A stretch of DNA of 32,350 nt from the NCBI GenBank assembly GCA_019359315.1, contig JAHHHO010000059.1, forward strand, positions 1 through 32,350. The letters run 5' to 3'. The notes beneath the pieces are model-generated. The model did not search any database. It was not told the origin of the DNA and worked only from the letters and a program-made list of their open reading frames with translations. The stretch's first letter is position 1. The number at the start of each line of letters is the position of its first letter. The translations under genes and the position numbers were made by a program. Below, in pieces: positions 11,044 to 26,393 of the stretch. Source of the DNA: Myxacorys californica WJT36-NPBG1 (GTDB taxonomy: Bacteria; Cyanobacteriota; Cyanobacteriia; Leptolyngbyales; Leptolyngbyaceae).

Positions 11044-11719
11044 TGAAAAGAAACCAAAGTGATTACTAAAGATTTTTTAATGATTACCTCTTCTGAACCT
11101 TTGACTTGTTGGAGTACTAATGTCTTTTCCGTTCGTTATTACTGACTGAATCAATCGATACTCGTGTTTGTAACAAAAAACTCTATCCTTAGGTAGAATT
11201 CAAGGATTTTTGTAGCGATTACCTTCAAATTGGAAATTTAGATCGTCGTAACTGGCTCTTATCTTTTTGCCAAGGATGAGAGCCTTTTTATTGCAAAAAA
11301 GTAATCTTAAAAATTGTTAACAAGTGATCTTAAAAATCCTTAATAAACGCTAATCTTTTGATGTTTGGCTGCCAGTTATTGATTCTTTAAATTGTGTTTG
11401 TCAGCACTACTTGAATTAAATCAATTTCTATCTTAAGGTAGGCAGGTAAGGCAGGGGTAACTATTAGAGTATTGAGCTAGCTGATGCGAATTTGCTAGTT
11501 CTAAACGGAATAATTTCTCCACGGCTGAGTTTTGTGTCCAGTAACAAAAAATTCCCCGTTCATCTATCTGGGTATTAACTCTGCTTTTGCCTTCCATTCT
11601 GTTCTCCTCTGAAATGGTGGAAAGCTGAAAACTTCTGTGTTTGAGCGACTCATTATCGTTCAGTTTCCTATCGTCCAGTTTCAAACAAACATTGTTCAGA
11701 AAAAATGTAGGCGAAAGAT
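11044..11719. other. Gene-free region upstream of psaB2
   Basis: No credible gene was found in this A+T-rich stretch. It contains a terminator (11254-11289), a weaker atcctt/aaggat hairpin with a T-run (11185-11211) and a direct repeat of aagtaatcttaaaaat/aagtgatcttaaaaat (around 11300 and 11324). The psaB2 promoter should lie in its right half, but I could not define -10/-35 boxes. No GTA-N8-TAC site was found here. Confidence 0.5.
11254..11289 (+). terminator. Rho-independent terminator
   Basis: ggctcttatc pairs with gatgagagcc (9 of 10) across an 11-base loop, followed directly by a T-run. The orientation ends plus-strand transcripts coming from the repeat region. It insulates psaB2 from upstream transcription. 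Confidence 0.7.
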
Positions 11720-13936
11720 ATGGCGACAAAGTTTCCAAAATTTAGCCAAGACCTCGCTCAAGACCCGACTACACGACGCATCTGGTATGGTATTGCCACT
11801 GCGCACGACTTTGAAAGCCACGATGGCATGACCGAAGAGAAGCTTTATCAAAAGATATTTGCAACTCACTTTGGTCATGTGGCAATCATTTTCCTGTGGA
11901 CATCGAGTCTTCTATTCCACGTGGCATGGCAAGGTAACTTTCCTCAATGGATCAAAGATCCGCTCAACGTTCGCCCGATTGCACACGCTATTTGGGACCC
12001 TCAGTTTGGTCAGCCTGCGGTAGATGCCTTTACCCAAGGGGGCGTGAACTATCCGGTTAATATTGCCTATTCAGGCGTGTATCACTGGTGGTACACCATC
12101 GGCATGCGAACCAATGGTGATCTGTACCAAGGTGCAGTTTTCCTTCTGTTCCTGGCAGCCCTCTTCCTGTTTGCGGGCTGGCTACACCTACAACCCAAGT
12201 TTCGCCCCAGTTTAGCTTGGTTCAAGAATGCTGAGTCTCGGCTCAACCATCACTTGGCCGGATTGTTTGGGGTGAGTTCTCTCGCTTGGGCAGGGCACTT
12301 GATCCACGTTGCAATCCCCGAATCCCGCGGACAGCACGTGGGCTGGAATAATTTCCTGTCTACCCTACCCCATCCTGCAGGTTTGAAACCCTTTTTCACG
12401 GGAGATTGGGGTGCTTACGCTCAGAACGCTGACACGGCGGATCATGTGTTCGGCACAGCGCAAGGTTCAGGAACCGCAATTTTAACGTTCCTAGGTGGCT
12501 TTCATCCCCAGACAGAATCGCTCTGGCTGACGGACATGGCACACCACCATCTGGCGATCGCGGTGATCTTTATCATTGCGGGCCACATGTACAGAACTAA
12601 CTTTGGCCTTGGTCACAGTATCAAAGACATTGTTAACGCCAAGAATTTCTTTGGTAAGGGCGTTGATGGTCAAGGTAACTTACCGCACCAAGGGCTGTAC
12701 GACACCTATAACAACTCCCTGCACTTCCAGCTAGGCATTCACCTCGCTGCTTTGGGAACGGCGTTGTCTGTAGTAGCGCAGCATATGTATGCGATGCCGC
12801 CCTACGCCTTCATGGGAAAAGACTTCACGACTCAAGCCGCTTTGTATACGCACCATCAATACCTTGCGGGTTTCTTCATGGTCGGTGCGTTTGCTCACGG
12901 CGCGATTTTCTGGGTACGGGATTACGATCCTGAGCAGAACAAGGATAATGTGCTGCAACGGTTCATTGGGCACAAAGAAGCTATCATCTCCCATTTGAGC
13001 TGGGTATCGCTGTTCCTCGGCTTCCACACACTCGGCTTATACGTTCATAACGATGTTCAAGTTGCGTTTGGAGCACCTGACAAGCAAATCCTGATTGAGC
13101 CAGTGTTTGCTCAATTCGTCCAAGCATCTCACGGTAAAGCGATATACGGCCTTAACACTCTGCTATCTAATGCTGATAGTTTGGCCTCTAACACGGGCGC
13201 AACCTACTTGCCCGGTTGGCTAGAAGCAATTAACAGCGGAACAAACTCCTTGTTCCTGACGATTGGCCCTGGCGATTTCTTGGTTCACCATGCGATCGCG
13301 CTCGGTCTACACGTCACCACGCTCATCTGCCTCAAAGGCGCATTAGATGCTCGTGGAACCAAACTGATGCCCGATAAGAAGGATTTTGGCTTCACCTTCC
13401 CCTGCGACGGCCCCGGACGCGGCGGCACTTGCCAAATTTCTGCTTGGGAACAGTCTTTCTTCCTAGCCATCTTCTGGATGCTCAATACGATTGGATGGGC
13501 TACGTTCTACTGGCACTGGAAGCACCTCGCAATCTGGTCGGGTAACGTCGCTCAATTCAACGAAAGCTCGACCTACCTCATGGGTTGGCTGCGCGACTAC
13601 CTCTGGCAGTATTCGGCTCCGCTGATTAACGGGTACAATCCTTACGGCACAACCAATCTGTCTGTCTGGGCCTGGATGTTCCTGTTTGGACACCTAGTCT
13701 GGGCAACCGGATTCATGTTCTTGATCTCCTGGAGAGGCTACTGGCAAGAACTGATCGAAACCCTGGTTTGGGCGCACGAGCGCACACCTTTGGCGAACCT
13801 AGTTCGTTGGAAGGACAAGCCAGTCGCACTCTCGATTGTTCAAGGCTGGCTGGTAGGTTTAGTTCACTTTACAGTGGGTTATATTCTCACCTACGCTGCC
13901 TTCCTGATTGCTGCAACTGCTGGTAAATTTGCCTAA
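11720..13936 (+). CDS. psaB: Photosystem I P700 apoprotein A2, divergent PsaB2-type paralogue
   Basis: This 738-residue, 11-helix thylakoid protein is one half of the photosystem I core heterodimer. It starts [20 protein letters not shown] like ordinary PsaB. The FX [4Fe-4S] loop [12 protein letters not shown] carries Cys562 and Cys571. The P700 ligand His658, the A0 ligand Met666 and the quinone-stacking Trp675 are present. The gene lacks the usual upstream psaA. Relative to normal PsaB as I recall it, there is one extra residue after the FX loop ([12 protein letters not shown], Gln578). Also, QARLVGL near the B-side phylloquinone is replaced by QGWLVGL (Gly709-Trp710). An inserted Gln near FX and changes near the B-branch quinone are reported hallmarks of PsaB2 in nitrogen-fixing cyanobacteria. 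A strong terminator follows, so it is probably monocistronic. Confidence 0.95.
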
Positions 13937-20081: not shown

Positions 20082-21053
20082 TTGCCTGCCATTCCTAGCA
20101 AACCGCGATCGTCGCGAAATCGGAGCTTGACCTTGACTGACGCTGACCGACAGCGGCTGCGATCGCGCCTTCTCACACTCGAACCAACGCTACCCAACCC
20201 GGCGATCGGAACGATCCAGGGCAATTGCCTCGACATCATTCAGCATCTCCCCTTGGGCAGCGTCGATCTACTGATTCTTGATCCGCCCTATAACTTAACG
20301 AAAGACTTTAATGGACTAAAGTTTGCTAGACGGGCAGTGGAAGACTACACCGCATGGCTCGATCAACTCATAGTCGCCCTCAAGCCGTTACTTAAATCAA
20401 CCGCCTCCATCTATATCTGCGGCGATTGGTTGTCATCTGCCTCTATATTCACGGTCGCAACCCGCCATTTCGTGGTGCAAAATCGCATCACTTGGGAGCG
20501 AGAGAAGGGACGTGGGGCAAAAGCAAATTGGAAAAATTCCAGTGAGGATATCTGGTTTTGTACCGCTTCTAACCATTACACCTTCAATTTAGAAGCCGTC
20601 AAGCTGCGTCGTCAGGTAAAAGCTCCTTACCGGACTCAAGACGGCAATCCCAAAGATTGGGAAACAACAAAGGGCGGAAATTTTCGCGATACTCACCCAT
20701 CAAACTTCTGGACAGATATCACAATTCCGTTCTGGTCAATGCCAGAAAATACGGAACATCCCACCCAAAAAAGCGAAAAGCTGCTCGCTAAACTGATTCT
20801 TGCAAGTTCTAACCCTGGCGATTTTGTGTTCGATCCCTTTGTCGGCAGTGGAACGTCTTCTGTTGTTGCAAAAAAGCTGAGCAGGCAGTATTTAGGAATT
20901 GATTTGAACGAAGAATATTGCCTGCTAACCGAGCGCCGACTAGAATTAGCCGACTCTGAGCGAGCAATTCAGGGCTTCACCAATAATGTGTTTTGGGAAC
21001 GGAATACGCTCGCCGTTCAGAAACGCAATCGAGAAAACGCTGACGTGCAGTGA
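20082..21053 (+). CDS. Orphan site-specific DNA methyltransferase (beta-type order)
   Basis: This 323-residue enzyme methylates DNA with SAM. The catalytic motif IV is DPPYNLTKDF (Asp67-Tyr70), close to the N-terminus. The SAM-binding motif I, DPFVGSGTSSVVA (from Asp251), is near the C-terminus. This order, IV before I, with a target-recognition stretch between, marks the beta group, which includes N6-adenine and some N4-cytosine methylases. DPPY favours adenine. No restriction enzyme gene is adjacent, so it is solitary, as many conserved cyanobacterial methylases are. The recognition site is unknown. The only available start is TTG at 20082, with gaggg 12 bases upstream. Confidence 0.88.
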   Translation: MPAIPSKPRSSRNRSLTLTDADRQRLRSRLLTLEPTLPNPAIGTIQGNCLDIIQHLPLGSVDLLILDPPYNLTKDFNGLKFARRAVEDYTAWLDQLIVALKPLLKSTASIYICGDWLSSASIFTVATRHFVVQNRITWEREKGRGAKANWKNSSEDIWFCTASNHYTFNLEAVKLRRQVKAPYRTQDGNPKDWETTKGGNFRDTHPSNFWTDITIPFWSMPENTEHPTQKSEKLLAKLILASSNPGDFVFDPFVGSGTSSVVAKKLSRQYLGIDLNEEYCLLTERRLELADSERAIQGFTNNVFWERNTLAVQKRNRENADVQ

Positions 21054-22631: not shown

Positions 22632-24047
22632 TTACTCAACGCGGGTCATACTGAATGCACCCATTTCTTCTCCATATCCTTCTTCGCCATGCTCGTTAAC
22701 ATCTACCCCTTGCAGTTCGGCTTCAGGATTGACTCGTAAGCCAATCGTTGCATCTAAAACTTTCAAAATCACAAAGGTGCCAATGCCTGCGATCGCATAG
22801 GCAATCAGAATTGCAATGATTTGCGTAACTAGCTGACCTGGATTGCCATAGAACAATCCATCGCCGCCTGCCGAGTTCACCGTCTTTGTTGCAAAAAGAC
22901 CGGTTAGCAATGCGCCTACTGTTCCGCCCACACCGTGGACTGGAAAGGTGTCTAGAGAGTCGTCAAACTGCAACTTGGCTTTGAGGCTGACGGCGAAGAA
23001 GCAGGCGGTTGATGTAATTGCACCAATCAGCAGCGCGGCTACGGGGGTAACAAACCCAGCCGCTGGTGTAACCCCTACTAAACCCGCCACAGCACCTGTC
23101 GCAATGCCAACCGCAGTCGGCTTGCCACGCAACACCCATTCCAAAATAACCCACACAAGCGCTGCTGCCGCCGCGCTGCTATTGGTAGATACGAATGCCA
23201 CCGTAGCCAACGATCCAGAAGCAAGGGCACTACCAGCGTTAAAGCCAAACCAGCCAAACCATAGGAGACCCGCACCGATCAGAATGTAAGGCACGTTATG
23301 AGGCGCAGCGGGCTGATTTGGGAACGTCTTACGCGGACCAATGACCCAAGCCGCTACCAGCGCAGCAACTCCAGAACTAATGTGAACGACTGTACCGCCT
23401 GCAAAATCTAGCGCTCCTAGTCCACCATACAAGCCGAGAAATCCACCTTTCGCCCACACCATGTGAGCAAAAATAGGATAGAGAATGCTTGACCACAGAA
23501 CAATAAACCAAAAATAAGCCTTAAAGCTAATACGCTCCACGATCGCACCAGAGATGAGCGCTGGCGTAATAATGGCAAACATTGCTTGATAAATCATGAA
23601 TGTTTGGTGCGGAATCGTAGCAGCGTATGACACCACTGCTTCAGGCGCGGTTCCAGCCAGGTAATCGGTCGTTTCTAGACCGACTCCATTCAGAAACAGC
23701 CATTGCAACCCACCAATGAAGGGGAGTCCTGGCGCAAAGGCCAGGCTGTAGCCCCACAGAATCCAGGAGACGCCAACAATGCCCATGAGAATGAAGCTCA
23801 TCATCATGGTGTTGAGGACGTTACGCGATCGCACAAACCCGCCGTAGAAAAACGCAAGTCCAGGAGTCATCAGCAAAACCAGAGCGGCGCAGATCAAGAT
23901 AAAGGCTGTGTCCGCCTGCGAAGTCGCCGCGGTTGCGGATGTTTGAGCAGACTCAGCCGTTGCTGGTTCAGCAAGTACACTACCCGTAAGGGGAATCGAT
24001 AGCAGCACTAAGGCCACTAGTCCTATCGTTAGAAGTTTTCTCAACAC
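22632..24047 (-). CDS. amt: Ammonium transporter (Amt/MEP/Rh family)
   Basis: This 471-residue channel-like transporter conducts ammonium into the cell as a trimer in the cytoplasmic membrane. The N-terminus is a signal-type hydrophobic segment followed by an Ala/Ser/Thr-rich spacer. The family core includes FFYGGFVRSRNVLNTMMMSF and GWFGFNAGSALA. The conduction histidines lie in DFAGGTVVHISSG and FPVHGVGGTVGALLTGLF. The cytoplasmic tail (GVDVNEHGEEGYGEEMG) is the usual PII-interacting region. The GTA-N8-TAC site about 100 bases upstream suggests activation by NtcA under nitrogen limitation. The second amt gene lies 410 bases upstream on the same strand. Confidence 0.93.
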   Translation of the reverse strand: MLRKLLTIGLVALVLLSIPLTGSVLAEPATAESAQTSATAATSQADTAFILICAALVLLMTPGLAFFYGGFVRSRNVLNTMMMSFILMGIVGVSWILWGYSLAFAPGLPFIGGLQWLFLNGVGLETTDYLAGTAPEAVVSYAATIPHQTFMIYQAMFAIITPALISGAIVERISFKAYFWFIVLWSSILYPIFAHMVWAKGGFLGLYGGLGALDFAGGTVVHISSGVAALVAAWVIGPRKTFPNQPAAPHNVPYILIGAGLLWFGWFGFNAGSALASGSLATVAFVSTNSSAAAAALVWVILEWVLRGKPTAVGIATGAVAGLVGVTPAAGFVTPVAALLIGAITSTACFFAVSLKAKLQFDDSLDTFPVHGVGGTVGALLTGLFATKTVNSAGGDGLFYGNPGQLVTQIIAILIAYAIAGIGTFVILKVLDATIGLRVNPEAELQGVDVNEHGEEGYGEEMGAFSMTRVE

Positions 24048-24143
24048 TGACTTTCGACCTTCAACGCCAAAACTATGAGTTTGAAATAATCAGCCATCTG
24101 ATTCGTATCATTGAATCTCACCAATTTTGAGTAGGAAGATTCT

Positions 24144-24157
24144 GTATAGGAAAATAC
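24144..24157 (-). promoter_or_regulatory. NtcA-type binding site upstream of amt
   Basis: The palindrome GTAtaggaaaaTAC fits the NtcA consensus GTA-N8-TAC exactly. For a class II NtcA promoter, a transcription start near 24109 is expected, giving a leader of about 62 bases. The -10 position shows tgagat at 23-base spacing, only a partial match to TA-N3-T. Confidence 0.6.
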
Positions 24158-24369
24158 ACTTTGATTGCGATCGCTCTGCCAGCTTAGGAAGGGCATAGCT
24201 CTGTCTTAGGTCGTGCAAAGTATCTATCTCTCGACAGAAGCAGAATGTTAAGGCATTGCTTGGATTTTATAAGTGACCTAAATTAAACAAAACTTAAGTC
24301 AAGCAAATTGCGTGTTCACTCAGCCGTAATCATCTTCTAGACTTGACGAATTGCTATAAGGCTTAAAGC

Positions 24370-24412
24370 AATCAAAGAGCAGTTCCAGAAGCTTAGAACT
24401 GCTCTTTGATTT
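24370..24412. terminator. Long inverted repeat downstream of the second amt gene
   Basis: aatcaaagagcagttc pairs perfectly with gaactgctctttgatt across a 10-base loop. It lies 46 bases past the stop of the gene at 24458 and separates the two amt transcription units. The T-run is weak in the minus direction. Confidence 0.7.
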
Positions 24413-24457
24413 AGAAGTAATGAAATTTAGAAGTACCGAGCCAAAAAACTCGTCGCC

Positions 24458-26032
24458 TTATTGATACGTCTTTCCTACAACATCGCTCGGAAATTCAGGA
24501 TGTGTAGCGCTTCCAAAGGAAGCCTCTTTCGCAAAACCAGCGTAGCCTTCCATGCCATGTTCTGAAATATCGAGTCCAACCATTTCTTCCTCAGCCGTCA
24601 CTCGGATACCCAGGATTGACTTCAGCGCAATCCAGAAAATGCTGGAGAGTAGAACCGTAAACCCTCCGACTGATAAAATTCCAATCAACTGAATCCAAAG
24701 CTGACCGATGCCACCGCCAAAGAGCAGACCTGCGGCAGGAGCAGGAGCCGCCCCGAATGCATCGCCTTGGCTAAACAAGCCAAGTGCCAACGTACCCCAA
24801 ATGCCATTGACCAGGTGAACTGGAATTGCACCGACCGGATCATCAATCTTGATAGAATCGAAAAATCCGACTGCGAAGACCACTAAGACGCCTCCAATAG
24901 CACCAATGATTGCCGCCGAAGGGACGCTGATAAATGCACAGGACGCAGTGACCGCGACCAATCCGGCTAGCAGTCCATTCACAATCATGGATAGATCCGG
25001 TTTGCCCAGTACAACCCAAGCTGTAATAGTTGCTGCGATCGCGCCAAAGGCACCACCTGTATTAGTCGTCAGTGCAATATGGGCAATCAAAGAACCATTA
25101 CCCACGCTCATTGTGGAACCTGGATTAAAGCCAAACCAACCCAACCAAAGAATCAAGGCTCCCAAGGTTGCGATGCTCATGTTGTGACCCGGAATCGCAT
25201 TCGATCGTCCATCTGTAGCATATCTGCCGATTCTAGGACCCAGAAAAGCGGCTCCCATGAGCGCGGCCCAACCGCCGACCGAATGAACCACGGTCGAGCC
25301 TGCGAAGTCATAGAAGCCAGCATCAGCAAGCCATCCACCCCCCCAGATCCAGTGTCCAGTAATCGGGTAAGCAATTCCTACCAGCAGCAAGCTAAAGATT
25401 AGAAAGTCAACGAACTTAATGCGTTCAGCTACAGCACCCGACACAATCGTGGCGGCTGTTCCAGCGAAAACGAGTTGGAAGAAGAACTTCGCGCCTAGAG
25501 GAATTCCTGTCCAATTTAATGCAGAGAAGACGCCTTGGTAAGCATCTGCTGTAGCAGGACTATTGTCCGCCCCAGTCAAGAAGAATCCGTTAAAGCCAAT
25601 GAAGTCGTTGCCATTACCGAACATCAGCCCAAAGCCGAGCGCCCAGAAGGCAACTGTGGATAAGGCGAACACAATTAAGTTTTTCGACAGAATGTTCACC
25701 GCATTCTTCTCGCGGCAAAATCCTGCTTCTAACATGCAAAATCCTGCGTTCATAAAGAACACCAAGAAGCCTGCAATCATCACCCACACAGTATCTAAGC
25801 CGACCCGCAGGTCGGACGCCGTTTGCGATACACTTTCTAGCGTTGCTGGCTGTTGAGCAATAGCGGCACAGTTCCACAGCAGAAAGATCGCACTGGTGAG
25901 TAGAATGCAGCTTCGCCAAGTAGGAGATAGCTGCGTCGCGATGAACTTAAGCGATCGCACGACGGGATTCCGATTGAGAGAACCTCTTTGAGGTTTCCTT
26001 GTTCTCTTTTTCAAAATGGTTCTAGACAGCAT
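24458..26032 (-). CDS. amt: Second ammonium transporter (Amt family), divergent from neighbour
   Basis: The frame extends upstream to 26140, but the ATG at 26032 has aagga seven bases before it and is chosen, giving 524 residues. A basic N-terminal region and a signal-type helix ([20 protein letters not shown]) precede the Amt core. The core has [33 protein letters not shown] and conduction-site histidines in [14 protein letters not shown] and [20 protein letters not shown]. The C-terminus has [12 protein letters not shown], the PII-contact type tail. Sequence blocks differ clearly from the other amt gene, so this is a distinct subfamily rather than a recent duplicate. A perfect GTA-N8-TAC site lies about 370 bases upstream of the start. 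Confidence 0.93.
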
Positions 26033-26393
26033 AAAGTTTTCCTTGCAACGCGCGCTGGAAGATTGGTGATTCTGGATGCACTCTTGAGTAAATTCAGAAG
26101 TTCTCTCTGAAAAGAGGCTTTGGAGAAACGAAAGCTCCACAAAATGACTGTTTTAGAAACCGCAGAGCGGCTTGAATCTTTCAGGTCAAACCATAGTTAC
26201 TGAAGAGAATCAGGTCGAAAATGGGAGACTTTGAGCTTCCCAAAACAATCAACTTATAGACTGAAAATCTTGTCTAGAAGGTGAAGGTGATTGAGCAATA
26301 GCAAAGTCTAAGATCACCAGAAATGAACTTGCGCACAGAGTTTTAGAGTGGTTTGATACTCATTAAGATTTCAGCACTAGGCATGCAAATTCT

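Follow-up and report, generated by a model that had tools for sequence, protein, structure and literature searches.

A stand-alone PsaB3-type photosystem I core protein in a genome of Leptolyngbyaceae and the putative mosaic history of its family

The window, i.e. the whole stretch of 32,350 nucleotides of Myxacorys californica WJT36-NPBG1 that was analysed, carries a psaB gene apart from the psaAB operon of the host. The encoded protein is a further member of the already described PsaB3 family, known as PsaB2 in the Nostoc nomenclature. Judged from sequence comparisons, and with a probability of roughly 0.6, this second PsaB replaces the ordinary PsaB in a part of photosystem I (PSI), pairs with the single PsaA and retunes the FX cluster and the quinones. 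With the same probability, PsaB3 would represent a tuning of PSI electron transfer and not a component of nitrogen fixation. Beyond what is known of the family, the comparisons point to the lack of an association with nifD, to genomes in which a PsaB3-type protein is the sole PsaB, and to a mosaic history.

The open reading frame at positions 11720-13936 (plus strand) starts with ATG and encodes an intact PsaB of 738 amino acids, which matched the psaB profile TIGR01336 over residues 2-737 with 1506.9 bits (cut-off 921.65). The window represents contig C36 of a host genome of 5.97 Mb with a completeness of 99.98%. When this genome was searched with the window protein, exactly three matches were obtained, namely the protein itself and a PsaB and a PsaA on contig C90. 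There, psaA and an ordinary psaB lie side by side (locus L002), and this PsaB is 89% identical to the window protein. A second psaA was not found in the host genome; as the only psaA lies beside the psaB of C90, no separate psaA accompanies the gene of the window. The original prediction, made from the sequence of the window, had described the gene as stand-alone and had proposed a search for the psaAB operon of the host; the pair on C90 and the location of the window gene on C36 confirm this description. The window proteins scanned on both flanks have other functions or belong to no named family, and no other PSI core protein and no psa or phycobilisome family was named among them. A pseudogene or an assembly artefact was ruled out by the intact reading frame and by the occurrence of the same residues in 46 distinct proteins.

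Upstream of psaB3, a terminator-like hairpin is located at positions 11254-11284, about 440 bases ahead of the gene, which may therefore be transcribed on its own. A promoter scan of positions 11200-11720 revealed no site, and an HLR1-type light-response site at the window gene scored no better than in shuffled sequences. HLR1-like near-perfect direct repeats were detected only in two Calothrix loci (L049 with one mismatch, L057 with none), about 269 bases upstream of psaB3. Elsewhere in the window, two full-length ammonium transporter genes (PF00909) lie in tandem on the minus strand (22632-26140), and an N6_N4-type DNA methylase (PF01555) is encoded at positions 20082-21053, with no restriction gene recognised among the neighbours scanned. 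Comparison of the other genes of the window with 28 PsaB3 loci (27 distinct, L008 and L186 being one place) gave only four weak matches with 24-41% identity (L032, L170, L172 and L183). When the neighbourhoods of 24 PsaB3 loci were compared with each other, those of Leptolyngbya g8 shared most (8-13 open frames in six pairs), and pairs outside this group had 1-7 open frames in common. Related psaB genes also occur on mobile DNA, with one cyanophage copy (69% identity, two records) and one Fischerella plasmid copy (78%). The phage gene is that of Prochlorococcus phage P-TIM68 (KM359505.1, positions 184982-187177).

For the extra PsaB of Nostoc punctiforme, Magnuson et al. 2011 are cited with the name PsaB2 in Cardona's review of 2014 (PMC4582080) and in PMC10694217, and the same protein was renamed PsaB3 in 2023 (PMC10694217). 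In the consulted parts of the latter study, the Gln insertion is confirmed for all of its PsaB3 sequences, which occur in Nostocales and, in addition, cluster among mostly Leptolyngbyales and Oscillatoriales sequences. Since PsaB3 was placed in these orders in 2023 and non-heterocystous carriers are already in print (PMC10694217), the wider range that was expected to follow from a non-heterocystous host is not new. The presence of PsaB3 in PSI is reported for Chlorogloeopsis and Leptolyngbya ohadii in the parts consulted of PMC10694217 and PMC6424891, and for L. ohadii a constitutive use beside PsaB is cited in the former. The proposed membership of the window protein in the PsaB2 type is in accordance with the inserted Gln, the exchange of Arg712 for Trp and the location apart from the psaAB operon.

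The diagnostic residues were compared in 120 distinct PsaB sequences, 46 of the PsaB3 type (with the inserted Gln) and 74 ordinary ones, most of which are the best 80 matches to the query or derive from fetched genomes, a set that is biased to relatives of the query and from which three sequences with runs of N were left out. The 1JB0 numbering was taken from the match to 1jb0_B. Three columns separate the two groups completely, i.e. Gln575, the inserted Gln and Trp712 (1JB0 numbering). In the window protein, Gln572 (1JB0 575; 13433-13435, plus strand as for all codons given here) adjoins the second FX cysteine and replaces an Asp; Gln is present in 46/46 PsaB3-type sequences, and the 74 ordinary ones have 73 Asp and one Glu. 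The inserted Gln578 (13451-13453) became evident from the alignment to the 74 ordinary PsaB proteins, among them that of the host. The own PsaB of the host reads CDTSAWD-SFFLA and the window protein [13 protein letters not shown], with one extra residue after Glu577. As the residue is absent from the host's own PsaB in this alignment, the insertion is real. It occurs in 46/46 against 0/74 sequences by definition of the groups, and it was never found there without Trp712. The latter corresponds to Trp710 of the window protein (13847-13849), which replaces an Arg (46/46 versus 0/74) at a position presumably near the B-side phylloquinone.

Two further columns are nearly diagnostic. Cys537 (1JB0 540; 13328-13330) is Cys in 44/46 PsaB3-type sequences and Leu in 74/74 ordinary ones, and Phe558 (1JB0 561; 13391-13393) is Phe in 44/46 and usually Tyr in ordinary PsaB (Tyr 69/74, Phe 5/74). 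The window protein keeps the FX cysteines and the P700 histidine: the FX-binding loop Cys562-Cys571 (1JB0 565 and 574; 13403-13432), whose two cysteines we take to be the cluster ligands, is intact according to the sequence and the 1jb0_B match, as is His658 in the sequence (1JB0 660; 13691-13693), presumably the ligand of P700. Outside this handful of sites, PsaB3 was not distinguishable from ordinary PsaB (46 versus 74 sequences). The original prediction had counted 87 steps from Cys571 to His658 and placed an extra Gln578 after Cys571; the count is right, the ordinary PsaB of the host having one step fewer, and the insertion was found where it had been expected. A replacement of QARLVGL by QGWLVGL had also been claimed, of which the exchange of Arg for Trp is diagnostic, but the exchange of Ala for Gly is not; the residue at this position is variable among ordinary PsaB proteins, that of the host having QGRLVGL. 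Gln572 directly behind the FX cysteine and Cys537 mark PsaB3 in addition to what had been noticed before. No solved PSI structure appears to carry the insertion, since the best 5 of 175 PDB sequences that match a peptide spanning it all show a gap of one residue there, and the AlphaFold model of the window protein (pLDDT 39.7) was too poor to be used.

In the host alignment, a Gln of PsaA lies opposite Asp575 of PsaB, so that site 575 becomes PsaA-like in PsaB3. According to the parts consulted of PMC8575901, Asp575 of PsaB is in contact with water molecules that the symmetry-breaking Trp673 holds in place; a calculation to which this article refers attributes about 80 mV on A1A to the protonation of Asp575. 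Most probably, PsaB3 pairs with the single PsaA of the host in a share of PSI. In ordinary PSI, the carboxylate of Asp575 is hydrogen-bonded to the waters clustered at Trp673, which lie between quinone and FX; Gln in its place would remove this group. In concert with the missing Arg712 and the extended loop on the FX side, this would probably shift the redox potentials of the quinones and FX, and the shifted potentials would change the branch balance, the forward rate and the back-reaction of PSI. Since no PsaA3 exists, the remainder of PsaB3 has to fit the resident PsaA; this compatibility may be kept through recombination with the resident psaB, while selection would hold the residues around FX and the quinone. 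A tuning function is supported by the fact that only three differences are fully fixed (46 versus 74 sequences), all of them adjacent to FX or close to the quinone of the B side. For PSI of L. ohadii, in which both forms are reported to occur, the consulted part of PMC13068159 describes FTIR difference spectra as highly similar to those of other strains; the effect of PsaB3 may therefore be small, or it may be diluted by the mixture.

Within the class, 388 genomes were surveyed for PsaB3. The insertion, searched as a nucleotide pattern whose reversed control gave no match, occurred in 30 of them. The pattern for Trp712 was found at 41 places in 39 genomes, which comprise 31 carriers, a remnant in genome G207 and nine places outside a PsaB frame. 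Genome G358 had been missed by the insertion pattern (Ala for Ser) and was recovered by the Trp712 pattern, so the carriers number 31/388 and not 30. Insertion and Trp712 occur together in 31/31 carrier genomes, and the loci L089, L091 and L115 carry both as well.

The copy number of psaB was checked in all 31 carriers, and in 23 of these a further PsaB is present that lacks the insertion pattern. In four near-complete genomes, the sole PsaB is of the PsaB3 type and is encoded directly behind psaA. Three of them (G025, G040 and G054) belong to genus g43, and the coordinates of the fourth, G053, are identical to those in G388 (Microcoleus sp. FACHB-1515, locus L033). G025 is a single contig of 5.46 Mb with psaA and the PsaB3-type psaB at G025:C1:2421085-2425476 (L148). 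A location apart from the psaAB operon is thus true of the host of the window but untrue of these four carriers. A fifth carrier with a single PsaB, MAG YX3bin19 (G263), is only 74% complete, and the carriers G020, G265 and G318 are too fragmented for their copy number to be judged. The consulted parts of the PsaB2/PsaB3 literature contain no mention of sole copies. The existence of such strains suggests that PSI of the PsaB3 form supports ordinary photoautotrophic life, and they would yield pure PsaA:PsaB3 PSI, free of the ordinary form, for spectroscopy and structure determination.

In a MAG of Spirirestis rafaelensis (G390, outside the 388-genome sample), two PsaB3-type copies were detected, one of them behind psaA, and an ordinary PsaB was not found. 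The flanking motif FWALNTVGW at L014 and L031 of this MAG is also present in ordinary PsaB of several Nostocales. This looks like a hybrid; since the genome is a MAG, an assembly error is possible. Genome G034, which belongs to the host's own genus, has ordinary PsaB only. In G207, a degraded 3' remnant of psaB3 with an open frame of 78 residues (L222, L238; C46, about 76455) occurs beside an intact ordinary psaB elsewhere, which appears to be a sign of gene loss. PsaB3 can therefore be absent or lost.

The history of the protein was analysed after removal of the six diagnostic columns and with a split at residue 530, which was set when the diagnostic sites were already known. In a quick tree of the 120 sequences, the label had to switch 10 times between PsaB3 and PsaB, with no fewer than seven of these switches on well supported branches. 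A more careful mixture-model tree comprised 17 same-genome pairs and four copies in operon position. For the body (residues 1-530), PsaB3 formed one clade in 0/200 bootstraps of this tree, and the AU test rejected a single PsaB3 clade (p 6e-62; with the 120 sequences and the quick tree p 9e-5). Instead, the PsaB3 bodies group with PsaB of their own family or genome in Nostocales, f13 and f28 (each 100/99) and likewise in G062 (96/94) and f24 (98/88). For residues 531-738, one clade was compatible with the AU test (p 0.13; 0.59 on the 120 sequences), and for residues 501-738 including the diagnostic columns PsaB3 is one clade. In each of the nine regions compared, PsaB3 is nearer on average (19 pairs) to PsaB of its own genome than to PsaB3 from another family; this closeness is weakest at residues 501-600, and single pairs are reversed in places.

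Silent sites revealed a recent event in only one of 20 same-genome pairs, that of G066 (L138, L154), where 175 of 235 silent sites are identical in the body (74%) against 36 of 83 beyond it (43%; p 7e-7). In this genome, the gene conversion between psaB3 and psaB spans the first two thirds of the gene and spares the part around FX and the quinone. The pattern is reversed in the host lineage: the body of its PsaB3 lies apart from the host's own PsaB, and the C-terminal part clusters with that PsaB once the diagnostic sites are removed (96/94). The rarity of recent conversion, the failure of the C-terminal tree to give one clade and the reversed host lineage count against the proposed tuning with exchange of the remainder. 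As a refuting test, a tree with the protein inside ordinary PsaB had been named originally; the body indeed falls among ordinary PsaB proteins, and the FX/quinone residues set the protein apart. No study on gene conversion of psaB in cyanobacteria was found by title among the literature matches listed.

For the most part, the body goes with the family of the host, whereas the FX/quinone residues remain constant, which suggests recombination with ordinary psaB. The simplest reading of these sequences is that the FX/quinone residues had a single origin and that repeated recombination with the resident psaB followed. The main rival is that these residues arose repeatedly in separate psaB duplicates. 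Parallel evolution would account for the label changes in the body trees (at least eight on starred branches, being gains or losses) and for at least three changes, with one clade in 0/200 bootstraps, in the C-terminal tree without diagnostic columns. However, the same in-frame Gln insertion and the exchanges of Asp for Gln and Arg for Trp would have had to recur jointly several times, and no intermediate was found among the 388 genomes searched with two exact patterns. The conversion in G066 spares the C-terminal part, and a single clade is not rejected for this region by the AU test; repeated origin is therefore considered rather improbable, although it is the strongest of the alternatives. 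Less probable is that PsaB3 is a redundant spare copy with near-neutral differences, which contributes extra gene dosage only. This would be in line with the constitutive expression beside PsaB cited in the consulted part of PMC10694217, with the sameness of the two proteins apart from a few sites, and with the lack of the gene in the congener G034 and its decay in G207. The three features, however, do not vary among the 46 sequences, which represent seven or more families, whereas the rest of the protein goes with the host family or has diverged, and such constancy needs selection on those sites.

In the host genome, nifD gave no match above a weak level of 4.9e-12, and the only strong match to the NifH family is presumably ChlL; a NiFe hydrogenase was not matched either. 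A role as subunit specialised for nitrogen-fixing or microoxic cells, in a PSI linked to heterocysts or hydrogenase, was first proposed for Nostoc, and the consulted parts of PMC4582080 and PMC10694217 report that PsaB3 was first found in heterocysts of Nostoc punctiforme and is scarcer in an uptake-hydrogenase mutant. In the sampled genomes, nifD occurs above the cut-off in 11/31 carriers and 106/357 others (Fisher p 0.54), a test that ignores the shared ancestry of the genomes; counting the doubtful cases both ways (nine PsaB3-negative genomes with interrupted or partial nifD, and G159 with a match at NifE level only) gave p 0.55 and 0.69. Within the family of the host, the numbers are 4/11 and 10/31 (p 1). 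NiFe hydrogenase was matched in 5/25 carriers and 11/37 non-carriers (p 0.56; 62 genomes, ancestry likewise ignored), with six carriers, including three heterocystous ones, outside this comparison. Family f32 has PsaB3 in 3/23 sampled genomes; it was recognised as heterocystous because its nifD genes are interrupted and two of its members match named loci of Nostocales identically. In the other 20 genomes, no extra PsaB standing alone was detected by a protein search. Furthermore, the psaB2 transcript of Nostoc 7120 fell along with those of psaA, psaB1 and other psa genes under altered C/N balance, as stated in the consulted part of PMC7699953. A specialised role in nitrogen fixation is thus judged improbable, marginally more so than a spare copy. 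The residue count and the observation of the original prediction stand, but its nitrogen-fixation frame does not, as PsaB3 is not associated with nifD and the host lacks this gene. Least probable by far is a subunit of the far-red (FaRLiP) type, although this is also an extra PsaB and bears the name PsaB2 in a part of the literature. Only one psaA was found in the host genome, no other psa genes were recognised beside the window gene, and the window proteins scanned gave no sign of a FaRLiP cluster; the PsaB proteins of L160 and L166, which are encoded beside a second psaA and were classed as FaRLiP by inference, lack the insertion and keep Arg712. A FaRLiP origin was rejected on these grounds.

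Much work has been devoted to the asymmetry of the A and B branches of PSI and to the potentials of its quinones and of FX, often by means of point mutants. PsaB3 is a natural variant at the sites concerned. The lack of a link to nitrogenase weakens the usual explanation of PsaB3. Furthermore, at about even odds, PsaB3 is a portable set of FX/quinone-tuning residues of single origin on psaB genes, the rest of which was repeatedly replaced by the resident psaB to match the single PsaA; in at least two lineages (genus g43 and Microcoleus sp. FACHB-1515), it would have displaced the ordinary psaB from the psaAB operon and would run all photosynthesis. If this is true, PsaB3 represents an alternative energetic setting of PSI in oxygenic photosynthesis that arose by natural evolution and can be studied in a strain where nothing else is present. 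The results on nifD, sole copies and mosaic history, which were obtained by sequence analysis, merit the attention of specialists.

In comparison to known systems, the window protein resembles PsaB2/PsaB3 of Nostoc in its location outside the psaAB operon, the Gln insertion by FX, the changes on the quinone side and the lack of an own PsaA. It differs in its host, which belongs to the family of Leptolyngbya and is devoid of nifD and NiFe hydrogenase, and in its body, which lies outside any single PsaB3 clade. The PsaB3 proteins of Leptolyngbya g8, i.e. those of L. boryana (G190), L. sp. NIES-3755 (G204), Phormidium tanganyikae and Leptolyngbya sp. Prado105, are 90-92% identical to the window protein, have the same diagnostic residues and group with it at 100/99; their gene neighbourhood is different, and some genomes possess nifD (G190, G258, G265). 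The names of G190 and G204 derive from plasmid matches of 100%; G190 carries both psaB3 and an ordinary psaB, and L. boryana is described as a genetic model in PMC10581220. FaRLiP PsaB2 is likewise an alternative PsaB, but is accompanied by a PsaA2 encoded in the same far-red cluster. The ordinary PsaB of the host shares the FX cysteines and the P700 histidine with the window protein, whereas its gene adjoins psaA, the insertion is absent, and Asp, Leu and Arg occupy the diagnostic sites.
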